Shown here piece by piece: positions 11,710 to 25,033 of a DNA stretch of 64,000 bases; positions within the stretch are counted from its first letter, which is position 1; every line of letters starts with the position of its first letter. Below the pieces are notes generated by a model. It had not been told where the DNA came from. It saw only the letters and a list, made by a program, of their open reading frames with translations, and did not search any database. The position numbers and the translations under genes were made by a program. The stretch is from Hyphomonadaceae bacterium (GTDB lineage Bacteria > Pseudomonadota > Alphaproteobacteria > Caulobacterales > Hyphomonadaceae), in contig JAUYPV010000029.1 of NCBI GenBank assembly GCA_030697555.1, positions 24,839 through 88,838 on the forward strand, given 5' to 3'.

Positions 11710-12480
11710 ATGGAGCTGAGGGAGCGCATCGCAAGCTGGGCAGGGTGGCGGGCTTATGGTCCGGCCGCCGGCTCGGCTGCAACCCATGTTGTTCTGGCGC
11801 TGGTGTTCGCATCGATGCTGGCAGCATCGGGCGGCGAGCGCATGCCGCCACTCAAGCCGCCGCAACCACCACCCGCGCTGGACGTGACGCTGGTCTCGGA
11901 AGCGCTGCCGCCGCAAGGAATACGGCCCACGCCGCCGGATCCGCGCCGCGCGCCGCCAAAACCTCCGCCGGAGAAGGCGGCGCCCTTGCCGGAAGCGCCT
12001 CCGGTCCAAAATCGCGACCGCAAGGATGAGAAGCAACAGCAGCGAGCTGCGGCGCCGTCCATCACAGGCGGCGCGGTCAGCGACGACAAGGGCGGCGTCT
12101 ATCTCGGCGATTCAGCTTTGGCGGATTCCGGCGTCCCGCTGGGTCTGCGCGGTCTGCTCGAGGGAGACCCGTGCAATCCGAAATACGGTCCCAAGCGCGC
12201 CGACTGCGGCACGCGGTGGGACCAGAAGATCGGCATGCAGGCTTCGCTGGTTTCTCCCTCGGAGGAGGAACTGAAGCAAATGTATCCGGGCATCGTGCCG
12301 ACCTGTCCGTACAGGACAGGCTGTCAGGAAGGCGAGTGGATATCCAGCATCGGCACACGCAGCGTCGGCCTGAAGAGCCCGATGTCCGGCGGGGCTGGCA
12401 GCCTTGGCGGGGTGCATGACTCTGTCGGTCGGCTGGGTGTCAGCGACCCCTACCACATCGACCCGGGCTTCGGGAACTAA
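11710..12480 (+). CDS. Uncharacterised TonB-like Pro-rich membrane-anchored protein
   Basis: A 256-residue protein I cannot assign to a named family. Residues 22-40 form one membrane anchor, followed by a Pro-rich stretch (about 45-100, with [11 protein letters not shown]) that resembles the periplasmic spacer of TonB. The C-terminal third is not a TonB C-terminal domain: it has two Cys pairs ([14 protein letters not shown] and TCPYRTGC) and ends in a Gly/Ser-rich tail. Topology predicts the Cys-containing part in the periplasm. It precedes the secreted ubiquitin gene by 151 bases on the same strand. Confidence 0.6.
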
Positions 12481-12554
12481 TCGAAGATGTCGAACAGGTC
12501 GAACCCGCCGCGGCGCTTGCGGCCACAACAGGTGCTGCTTGCGCCATCGCTCAC
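12477..12554 (-). CDS. Possible 25-residue micro-protein ending FDLFDIFD (uncertain)
   Basis: Reading from a GTG at 12554 gives a 25-residue peptide with a Ser/Cys head (SSTCC), a basic patch (GRKRRGG) and the amphipathic end FDLFDIFD. Its stop is interlocked with that of the convergent upstream gene in a shared CTAA, as seen for several genuine gene pairs in this window. Against it: no clear ribosome binding site, and the frame stays open upstream without another good start. Treat as a candidate only. Confidence 0.25.
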
Positions 12555-12631
12555 CAGGCAAGTTTCATCAGCGCAAGATGGATGATATGTGCGTGACTGT
12601 AAGCGCCATTTCGCGGCCGCCGGAGGGACCC

Positions 12632-12925
12632 ATGCTGAAGAGATTGATGCTTGCCGCGCTCGTGTCGCTGATGATCGCGAGCCCGGCATTCGCCGAGAAG
12701 CTTCTGGTCAAGACGCTGACCGGTAAGACAATCACGCTGGACGTGAAACTGACCGACACCGTCGAAGCGGTGAAGCAGCAGGTGGCCGACAAGGAAGGCA
12801 TCCCGCCCGACCAGCAACGCCTGATCTACGCCGGCAAGCAGCTTGAAGACGGCCAGACGCTGGCTGACTCCGGAATCACGGACAACGCCACTGTGCATTT
12901 GGTGCTCCGTCTGCGTGGCGGCTGA
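12632..12925 (+). CDS. Secreted ubiquitin homologue: Sec signal peptide plus 76-residue ubiquitin with free Gly-Gly end
   Basis: The 97-residue product is a Sec signal peptide (MLKRL, an Ala/Leu core, SPAFA cleavage site after residue 21) joined to a ubiquitin fold. Cleavage after AFA leaves exactly 76 residues. Aligned by eye with eukaryotic ubiquitin without gaps, 52 of 76 positions are identical, including [11 protein letters not shown] (5-15), [13 protein letters not shown] (32-44), AGKQLEDG (46-53) and HLVLRLRGG (68-76). The Leu8-Ile44-Val70 patch and Lys6, 11, 27, 33 and 48 are kept; Lys29 is Gln and Lys63 is Asp. The chain stops right after Gly76, so no processing would be needed to expose the reactive tail. 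ATG at 12632 has GGAGGG upstream. Codon use is GC-rich like its neighbours, so any transfer is not recent. rlmJ starts 9 bases downstream. No conjugation enzymes lie in the window. Confidence 0.93.
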
Positions 12926-12934
12926 TCACGCACG

Positions 12935-13846
12935 ATGAACTACCGGCATGCCTTTCATGCGGGCAACTTCGCGGACGTGGTGAAGCACGTCGCGCTGGCC
13001 CTATGCCTCGACAGGCTCAACGCCAAGGAAGCGCCGTACCGGTACATCGACACGCACGCGGGCGTGGGTCGATACGACCTGACAAGCGACGAGGCGTTGC
13101 GCAGTCCAGAATGGCGCGATGGCGTTGCCCGCGTGTGGGAAGCGGAGCGCAGCGCGCCGAATGCCGTGCGCGCCGCGCTGGCGCCTTGGCTCAATATAAT
13201 CCGTGGAATGAACTCCGGCGGGCTGCGCGATTATCCTGGCTCGCCCCTGCTGGCTGCGGAGCTCATGCGGCAGCAGGATGCATTGCGCCTGTGCGAGCTC
13301 CACCCGGAAAGCGCCGCGGCCCTGCGCCTCGCGATGGGACGCGACAAGCGCGTGAAGATCGAGGAGCGCGACGGCTACGAGGCGCTGCCTGCCTATCTGC
13401 CGCCACCAGAACGCCGTGGGCTTGTGCTGATCGATCCGCCGTTCGAGGAGGGCACGAGCGTTCGCAAGCTCGACTTCGAATGGATGGCGGGCGCCGCGCT
13501 TAAGGCCGTAAAGCGCTGGCCGGGCGGAACCTACATTTTCTGGCGTCCGATCAAGGATATCGAAGCAGTGGAAGCGTTCGACGGCGAACTTGTCTCCCTG
13601 CTGATCGAGCAGGGCGGCATCGCGCCGGAGAAGCTGCTGGTCGCGGATCTCTGGGTGCGCGAGATCGGGCAGGGCCCACTTTCGGGAGCCGGCGTCGTCA
13701 TCGTCAATCCGCCATTCGGCGTCGCCGACCACCTTCGCGCTGCGTTGCCCTGGCTCTCCAACCTGATGGATCAGACCCCGGATGAGCAGGAGTCGACAGG
13801 CGCCGGCTGGCGGCTGGAGACGCCAGCCCCTGCCGAGCCTTCCTAA
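12935..13846 (+). CDS. rlmJ: 23S rRNA (adenine(2030)-N6)-methyltransferase
   Basis: Methylates A2030 of 23S rRNA with S-adenosylmethionine. The 303-residue chain opens with the family signature MNYRHAFHAGNFADVVKH and has DTHAGVGRYDL as the SAM-binding loop and the catalytic LIDPPFEE (DPPF/Y motif). A FWRPIKD segment and WVREIGQGPLSGAGVVIVNPP near the end complete the domain. It follows the ubiquitin gene by 9 bases, so both are probably on one transcript. Its stop interlocks with that of the convergent GST gene. Confidence 0.93.
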   Translation: MNYRHAFHAGNFADVVKHVALALCLDRLNAKEAPYRYIDTHAGVGRYDLTSDEALRSPEWRDGVARVWEAERSAPNAVRAALAPWLNIIRGMNSGGLRDYPGSPLLAAELMRQQDALRLCELHPESAAALRLAMGRDKRVKIEERDGYEALPAYLPPPERRGLVLIDPPFEEGTSVRKLDFEWMAGAALKAVKRWPGGTYIFWRPIKDIEAVEAFDGELVSLLIEQGGIAPEKLLVADLWVREIGQGPLSGAGVVIVNPPFGVADHLRAALPWLSNLMDQTPDEQESTGAGWRLETPAPAEPS

Positions 13847-22924: not shown

Positions 22925-25033
22925 ATGAATCTCGCACGCGAAGCAGGTTTCCGACTCGGGGCAATGCAGGTCCGGCCGTCCACCCGGGAAATCGTGTTCG
23001 CCGGAGGCCGGGAAGCGCTGGAGCCGCGCGTGATGGCGGTGCTCGTCCGGCTCGCCAAGTCGAACGGCGAGGTGGTGACCCGGGAGGACCTGACAGAAGC
23101 CTGCTGGGACGGTCGCGTCGTGAGCGATGACGCCATCAACCGGGTGATCTCCCGTATCCGCCGGGTCTCGGAACTGACCCAGGAAAAGGACTTCATCCTC
23201 GAGACCATCACAAAGGTCGGCTACCGCCTGGTCGCCCGGGGCGGCGTGCCAATCGAGGCTGCCACCGGGCAAGCTGCTCGGTCGCCCCAGGTCGCCTTGG
23301 TTCGGGAGCGGCGGTTGCTGATTCCCGTAGCGGTGCTGGCTGCGCTGGTGATCGCGGTTGCCACCGGAGCGTGGTGGCTGGCCGGACGCGAGCCAGAGTG
23401 GAAAGCCGATCCCAACGCCTCGCTGACGGTCGCGGTGTTGCCGTTCGACAACCTCGGCCGTGGCGAGGGCGACGATATTCTCGCGCTCGGCATGTCGCGC
23501 GAGATTCGCAACACGCTGTCGCGTGTGCGTGGGCTCAAGGTGGTGTCCGACAGCTCGTCGTTCGCCGCGGATGTGCAGAATCTCGGCGCCCAGGATATCC
23601 GGAAAAATCTCTGGGCCGACCTGCTGGTGGACGGCAGCCTCACCCGAACGGAGGGGTCGATTAAGCTCAGCGCCGAGCTGGTGGATGCAATCAGCGGCAA
23701 CAATCTCTGGACAGGCTCTCAGGAGGGACAGGCGACGGACCTCAATCGCCTGCAGCAGCTCATGTCTTCGGCAATCTTCGAGCAGATCGTCGCGCGGGTT
23801 GGACCCAGCCGGGTGCAGCAGCTGGCGCCGCCCAGGCCGGAGGACCCACGCGTCTACCGGCTGACGATGGAGTCTTCCGAACTTCTGCTCCAAGCGCACG
23901 ATTTCAATCGACACGGCGAGAAGGAAGCCTCGCTGGACGCGAGCGACAGGGCCTACGCGCTGGCGCAACAGGCGCTCGCGACGGACCCGAAGTCGTCGAC
24001 GGCGCTGGCGCTGGTCGGGTCGATGATCGAGGTTGCTGCAACGCACGAACTCGCCAGCAAAAACATGGCGCCAACCGACAGGTTCAGCCTCGCCGCCGAA
24101 TACATGCGCCGGGCGCTGGCCGTCGATCCGGATAATGCACTGGCGTTGCAGAAGCTGGCGGAACACTACCGGCGCAACGAGTGGCGCTGGGCGGACTCGC
24201 GCGGGCTGTTCGTGCGAGCGCTGGCGCTCAACCCCAACGACACGTTCACGCGCGTCTTCTACTCCTTCTATCTCTCTGGCGCCGGCCGCTGCATCGAGGC
24301 GCTGGAGCATGCGCAGCTCGCGGAGGATCTCGACCCTGTAAACTTCAAGACTGACCTCACCGTCCCGCGCATGCTGAACTGCACCGGGCAGCTAGAGGAA
24401 GCGGATCGACGCTATCGCCAGGTGCTCGACAAGGATCCCTCCAATGTCTTCATGCTGTCGGAGATTTACCTGCGCTTCCTGGCGCGGCGCGGCGCGATGC
24501 TGATGGGCTGAGGGCGCTTGCCAGCCATGTGCGCGACGACCTGTGGCGCGGAGCACCGCCTGCGCCGGTGGGGGCGGTGCTGGAGCGGGTGATGCTGGCG
24601 AGCGAAGCGCTCGAAGGACGGCCAGAGGCGTATCGGGCGCGGTTGTCACGCGAAGTGGACGCCTTCGACCGGGGGCGCCTTCGACAATCCGGTAACGCAG
24701 GGACGTAGGGTGTCGGATGTGCAGTGGACCTACGCGGTGGAGTTTGCGTTCGCGGGCGACACGTCGCGAGCGATCACCCTTTTGCAGGCGGCGGTGAACG
24801 AGGGCTCGCTCTACATACCGGAGACCATGCCTTACGGCTCGACCGAGTTCACGCCGGAAATGCGCGCCGACCCGCGCTATCAGGCGATCTGGCGGAATGA
24901 CCCGCGCCTGGTCGAACTGATGAAGCTGCGGCTTGAGGCGCTGGAGGCCGGGCAGATGGATGGCGTTCTGCCGGATGGTCGGCGATCGACGCCGAGGCCG
25001 GAAATCCTCAAGCCTGTTGACAGCCGTAGCTGA
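22925..25033 (+). pseudogene. Winged-helix/TPR regulator interrupted by two frameshifts
   Basis: CadC-like architecture: an OmpR-type winged helix (residues 1-105; VMAVLVRLAKSNGEVVTREDLTEACW ... NRVISRIRRV ... TKVGYRLVARG), one membrane helix (about 130-150), a TolB-like domain (VAVLPFDNLGRGEGDDILALGMSREI) and TPR repeats. The frame stops at 24509-24511 after 528 codons. Coding continues in the -1 frame from about 24500 (ALASHVRDDLWRG...), then returns to the original frame after a G run near 24670 and ends at 25033 with a plausible C-terminus. That equals a one-base loss and a one-base gain in a gene of about 702 codons. Either a decayed gene or two sequencing errors in GC-rich runs. It lies 44 bases upstream of blaI. 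Confidence 0.75.

Follow-up and report, generated by a model that had tools for sequence, protein, structure and literature searches.

The closest known protein to the one described here, likened to it by description rather than by alignment, is BfUbb, a secreted ubiquitin of Bacteroides fragilis with antibacterial activity that kills sibling strains (PMC5705921). According to the accessible part of that report, the bare 76-residue BfUbb inhibits 13 of the 40 sibling strains tested, bovine ubiquitin, complete with its terminal glycines, does not kill, and an immunity protein seems unnecessary for strains that make BfUbb. As described in the accessible portion of PMC3352274, BfUbb is identical to human ubiquitin at 48 of 76 positions, is devoid of the terminal glycines and ends in a cysteine. 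To this cysteine the authors credit the covalent complex that BfUbb and human E1 form when reducing agents are absent. Another ubiquitin with an added signal peptide that is used on another organism, that of Globodera rostochiensis, differs in stemming from a eukaryotic nematode and in carrying a 12-residue C-terminal extension (PMC5705921, same part). Bacterial conjugation operons of the CBASS/Bil and UBact types follow a different layout, with an E1-, E2- or protease-like gene adjoining the gene for the ubiquitin-like protein.

The window analyzed here, i.e. the whole stretch of 64,000 nt, extends from base 24839 to base 88838 on contig 67 in a Hyphomonadaceae assembly (4.98 Mb in 176 contigs, 99.45% complete, 0.41% contaminated). 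Translation revealed an open reading frame of 97 codons (12632-12925, + strand; termed ub), whose ATG at 12632 is preceded at a distance of 4 nt by GGAGGG (12622-12627, +), a likely ribosome binding site as judged from its position. Eleven database relatives of the same 97-aa length (P0122-P0132), all opening with ML[KN]R, back this start codon. The gene and ribosome binding site are as called in the initial annotation. The first 21 codons (12632-12694, +) encode a predicted Sec signal peptide ending in AFA, called by motif, hydropathy and conservation, with a mean hydropathy of 2.69 over its hydrophobic stretch. It is followed by a ubiquitin domain of 76 residues, E1 to G76, that ends in LRLRGG (12695-12922, +) and was assigned by Pfam, alignment and structural modeling; the stop codon lies at 12923-12925, 9 nt before the ATG of rlmJ. 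The signal-peptidase motif sits directly in front of ubiquitin residue 1, and cleavage there, as predicted from motif and conservation, would leave 76 residues as the mature protein, which closely resembles eukaryotic ubiquitin.

The encoded protein matched the Pfam ubiquitin family (PF00240) with 104.5 bits (cut-off 25.4), the only such match in the source genome, and was identical to human ubiquitin at exactly the 52 of 76 ungapped positions counted in the initial annotation. An AlphaFold2 model built from 14 sequences had a mean pLDDT of 80.7, with lower values at the leader and the last residues (ten-residue blocks of 56 and 54; final block of 70), and its top PDB match was ubiquitin (4pig chain B, rmsd 1.0 over 75 columns). 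Apart from the fold, the protein shares with eukaryotic ubiquitin the I44 face, R42, K48 and the LRLRGG tail, i.e. a free R72-x-R74-G75-G76 end. It differs in having E in place of M1, in the loss of K63, and in being a single unit behind a bacterial leader, whereas eukaryotic ubiquitin is made as polyubiquitin or as a ribosomal fusion. As far as the accessible parts of the BfUbb reports describe that protein, the two have in common a signal peptide, a mature start at ubiquitin residue 1, a length of 76 residues, sporadic occurrence and a similar identity to human ubiquitin (48/76 for BfUbb, 52/76 here). In contrast, the BfUbb tail is without glycines, as stated correctly in the initial annotation, and ends in Cys (PMC5705921, PMC3352274; accessible parts), while the ub product ends in LRLRGG. 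Moreover, BfUbb belongs to another phylum, and its toxicity has been demonstrated, whereas that of the ub product is proposed here.

Unlike the conjugation operons mentioned above, ub has no E1-, E2- or protease-like gene beside it; its neighbors encode a ClpP-like protein, a 256-aa protein, RlmJ and a GST. A search for E2 proteins in 15 genomes returned no match, and neither did its control anywhere. Two ThiF-family matches were obtained, one of them over the cut-off and on another contig than ub.

Comparison with relatives showed ub to reside in a conserved clpP-rlmJ block. On its left lies the gene for the 256-aa protein (11710-12480, +), which is proline-rich, has no Pfam match and shows a weak likeness to TolA (E 0.2); this gene was found at 13/13 relative loci, upstream of rlmJ in each of these 13 other genus genomes. 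On its right follows rlmJ (12935-13846, +; PF04378, 205 bits), encoding a 23S rRNA methyltransferase that was found in 14/15 genus genomes and whose named relative P0198, labeled Hyphomonadaceae, is 74% identical. ClpP and GST were each seen in 10 of the 13 other genus genomes within 1.5-kb flanks. At the position of ub, relatives carry a zinc-ribbon gene in reverse orientation (12/13; the remaining one, G003, has a 74-bp gap), which in one relative matched PF13453 with 61.2 bits. Judging from the comparison with these loci, the last codons of such a gene, complete in the relatives, persist as a 3′ remnant at 12480-12523 (- strand); a search for the gene elsewhere in the source genome, run without a positive control, gave no match. 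A further block common to relatives, the leader at 12558-12596, lies there ~25-100 bp before rlmJ and was matched in 6 of 15 relative loci (E ≤0.024); one more locus matched at E 3.5, with the block placed correspondingly. Between this native rlmJ leader and rlmJ sits a cassette of ~338 bp (12597-12934), its ends inferred from where the alignment stops and resumes, that has no counterpart in genus relatives and contains little besides ub and its ribosome binding site. Given the 9-nt gap, rlmJ is probably co-transcribed with ub. A promoter scan at ub returned none of the E. coli type, and we infer that the native leader drives the gene. In one member of the genus (G002), a second rlmJ region was observed (L026, L033, L034), with the rlmJ match in two pieces.

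The locus could be read in 13 other genomes of the genus, and in none of them does ub separate the 256-aa gene from rlmJ. The initial annotation had named such a lack of the gene in relatives that share the rlmJ surroundings as an outcome that would speak against it. The finding refutes an ancestral ub at the site and leaves a genuine gene placed there later unaffected. Since both adjacent genes are also present in genus members that lack ub, neither has the look of a dedicated immunity gene. Contamination or misassembly of the contig can be ruled out from the conserved flanks and the readable junctions; the former exclude the eukaryotic contaminant contig that had been considered at the outset. 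More broadly, a transferred gene devoid of function, or a eukaryotic contaminant, is a very improbable account of ub. It would gain from the absence of the gene from 13/15 genus genomes and from an internal stop in the ubiquitin copy of a relative (L008). It has to be reconciled, however, with the conserved flanks and readable junctions, with a third-position GC (0.806) and codon score (0.674) inside the range of the 13 neighboring genes at an overall GC (0.609) just under their lowest value (0.613), and with a clade of 14 proteins that keeps both frame and leader.

PF00240 matches were sparse at every taxonomic level, with 2/15 genomes in the genus, 4/105 in the family, 7/398 in an order sample, 6/131 in another genus of the order, 6/385 in a class sample (five over the cut-off) and 2/398 in a phylum sample; the genus, family, order, class and phylum samples overlap, and each includes the source genome. 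A pattern scan of genome contigs returned four loci. The ubiquitin genes of two genomes of the same family (G007, G081) lie in other surroundings. Of the genomes with a match, three (G276, G395, G575) are assembled into one contig each, an argument against contamination in these as well. No ubiquitin carried by a phage was found in 50,697 phage records, and a scan of IMG/VR gave eight loci, two of which (L039, L040) look by eye like polyubiquitin of eukaryotic viruses. Two PF00240 matches, one FtsH-like and below the cut-off (L017) and one without a leader (L018), were judged irrelevant by eye.

As a database search with full-length ub was swamped by polyubiquitins (best 120 of 7,982 matches), residues 1-44 were used instead, yielding 15 database proteins. 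Thirteen of these (P0122-P0134), including one labeled Hyphomonadaceae (P0134), have the same anatomy as the ub product and together with it form one side of a branch with an SH-aLRT value of 99 in a tree of 78 rows. These rows comprised the 14 clade members, 19 other bacterial or IMG/VR sequences, and a random selection of 45 out of 95 distinct first domains from eukaryotes or viruses. One clade member (P0123) and an RlmJ (P0175) are both assigned to a contig of 555,941 bases, so that this relative may have retained ub near rlmJ. With 76 columns, few forks were resolved (5/75 inner branches strongly supported, 48/75 open), so that the tree shows support for the clade of 14, whereas the origin of this clade is outside its resolution.

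Residue conservation was assessed over 16 proteins, namely the clade of 14 plus two free forms of the same family that fall outside it in the tree (L002, L007). No variation occurs at L8, I44, G47, K48, H68, L71, R72, R74 or G75 (16/16); R42 and V70 persist in 15/16, and K63 in one. G76 is kept in 13 proteins and replaced by S, Q or R in the other three. The six tail columns average 95% identity as compared to 83% for residues 1-70; however, 11/71 six-column windows, four of them overlapping the tail, are as conserved as the tail, which argues that constraint likely covers the whole recognition face and not just the tail.

Beyond the clade, exported ubiquitins appear to recur in bacteria in three forms: free, IPTL-CTERM-anchored, or at the N-terminus of an autotransporter. 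Free leader-ubiquitins comprise the clade of 14 and L002, L007, L011, L015, L037, L050 and L005. IPTL-CTERM fusions are represented by L009 and L010 (over the NCBIfam cut-off) and P0136 (database label PF18203), and further short proteins of this kind were recognized by eye in IMG/VR (L041-L043) and at L048 and L049. Autotransporters with an N-terminal ubiquitin, their PF03797 matches over the cut-off, are found in two genomes of one genus of the same class (L013, 1405-3021; L016, 160-1821); a further locus (L014) looks similar by eye and is without a barrel match. In L013 and L016, ubiquitin would be the surface-displayed passenger. As in the ub product, the leader directly precedes ubiquitin residue 1 in the IPTL-CTERM proteins (L009, L010, L048, L049, P0136) and in the autotransporters; the former differ by their C-terminal sorting motif, absence of a free tail and loss of R-x-R-G, the latter by a linker and beta-barrel domain after the ubiquitin. 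Over 33 rows, leaving out the short P0135 and the broken L008, a small-residue signal-peptidase motif ends exactly before residue 1 in 29 (strict A-x-A in 17), the exceptions being L003, L004, L006 and L012. Within open-licence full text, no publication with both ubiquitin and IPTL-CTERM was found; titles and abstract openings indicated none on autotransporter ubiquitin among the best 8 of 9 open-licence matches, and titles none on ubiquitin in Hyphomonadaceae among two matches. PMC13296761, by its accessible part, has host ubiquitin-like proteins as its subject.

These envelope-tied fusions in other bacteria would be in line with ub encoding a binding module that serves its producer in the periplasm or at the cell surface, for example a small, stable domain by which an envelope protein is held in place or shielded. 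We deem such a function quite unlikely, as the ub product is free rather than anchored and its sporadic occurrence in the genus argues against a housekeeping role in the envelope.

The architectures also differ in their tails. Among the 21 rows that end with ubiquitin or at most five residues past it, R-x-R-G-x is present in 17 and missing in four (L005 twice, L011, L015), as opposed to 0/7 anchor or barrel fusions; it is likewise lost in L048 and L049, and the free L050 ends in R-P-R-G. Retention of this motif in exported forms ending with ubiquitin would suit a protein aimed at eukaryotic neighbors such as grazing protists or algae, in which ubiquitin signaling would be distorted after uptake, be it through charging by the host E1 or through binding by ubiquitin receptors or deubiquitinases. 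Pointing the same way, the surfaces that eukaryotic enzymes use in their contacts with ubiquitin are those kept here (L8, I44, H68, G47, K48, L71, R72, R74 and G75 throughout; R42 and V70 in all but one), and the producer has one ThiF-family protein over the cut-off and no E2 match, the E2 control likewise giving none. Against this stand the substitutions of G76 in 3/16 and the equal conservation of the 11/71 windows, among which the tail does not stand out. Moreover, we know of no route by which the ub product would reach the host cytosol. Overall, we consider a eukaryotic target somewhat unlikely.

Export itself finds support in the leader, which the clade of 14 conserves, and in the junction at residue 1, which recurs; the Sec signal peptide of the initial annotation thereby stands as a prediction, and so does its cleavage. 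What the protein does after export we can propose tentatively, at somewhat less than an even chance: it may be a factor that diffuses and antagonizes other cells in the manner of BfUbb but has kept the ubiquitin tail. The protein would be exported by Sec and its leader cut exactly at ubiquitin residue 1; the freed 76-residue ubiquitin would leave the periplasm and bind a protein of neighboring cells through the ubiquitin face and tail; competitors carrying the bound target would be harmed; and a dedicated immunity gene would be unneeded, as in BfUbb producers. Uptake and target of BfUbb are reportedly addressed in a later paper. We place antagonism before action on eukaryotes because secreted BfUbb alone inhibits siblings and bovine ubiquitin is inactive. 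The anatomy shared with BfUbb (leader, residue-1 start, 76 residues), the conservation of leader and domain in the clade, and the recurrence of exported forms, some of them surface-anchored, all count for it, and the patchy occurrence (2/15, 4/105 and 7/398 genomes; 0/13 at the rlmJ site) fits a strain-level weapon. However, with BfUbb lacking the glycines and bovine ubiquitin inactive, the BfUbb mechanism leaves the conserved R-x-R-G tail unexplained. Passage of the outer membrane is a second point against antagonism: type II secretion was considered as the way out, yet no GspD over the cut-off was found in the search, its two secretins scoring 118.8 and 110.3 bits (cut-off 351.35). The secretin at L046 presumably resembles the pilus secretin CpaC. 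Of the earlier claim of periplasmic or extracellular action, perhaps on eukaryotes, a site outside the cytoplasm is favored. The target may be bacterial or eukaryotic: the studied relative kills bacteria (PMC5705921, accessible part), while the R-x-R-G tail would suit eukaryotic enzymes.

A bolder proposal, and an unlikely one, is that the free clade form is a conjugation-competent ubiquitin that, after its release, eukaryotic neighbors would take up, charge on their own E1 and incorporate into conjugates. If true, this would amount to cross-kingdom use of ubiquitin by a bacterium seemingly without a ubiquitin system of its own. BfUbb, the sole experimentally studied bacterial ubiquitin with a signal peptide in the literature reached, has by the accessible parts of its reports lost the joining tail, whereas the ub clade kept it. 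Tail-bearing, tail-less and anchored exported ubiquitins may therefore be viewed as a comparative system instead of a single curiosity, one that bears on the role of ubiquitin outside cells and on the entry of bacterial ubiquitin into eukaryotic conjugation.

Several loci outside the clade deserve mention in their own right. Flavobacterium notoginsengisoli carries an adjacent pair of leader-ubiquitins (L005, 7358-7648 and 8001-8294), neither with a glycine tail. An IMG/VR locus (L037, 1613-4276) encodes a free leader-ubiquitin ending in LRLRGG, with phage tail-like genes and a cyclophilin (PF00160) nearby. On plasmid pRUMAL01 of Ruminococcus albus 7 (L045, 4992-5732), a leader-ubiquitin continues for ~150 residues and is surrounded by genes for hypothetical proteins, for a protein with a PI-phospholipase C domain and for a dockerin protein. 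In a Lachnospiraceae assembly (L006, 2357-6787), the ubiquitin domain lies within a 1476-aa surface-type protein. Finally, a 220-aa protein (L012, 1495-2157) consists of a likely leader, ~120 residues of no recognized kind and a C-terminal ubiquitin.
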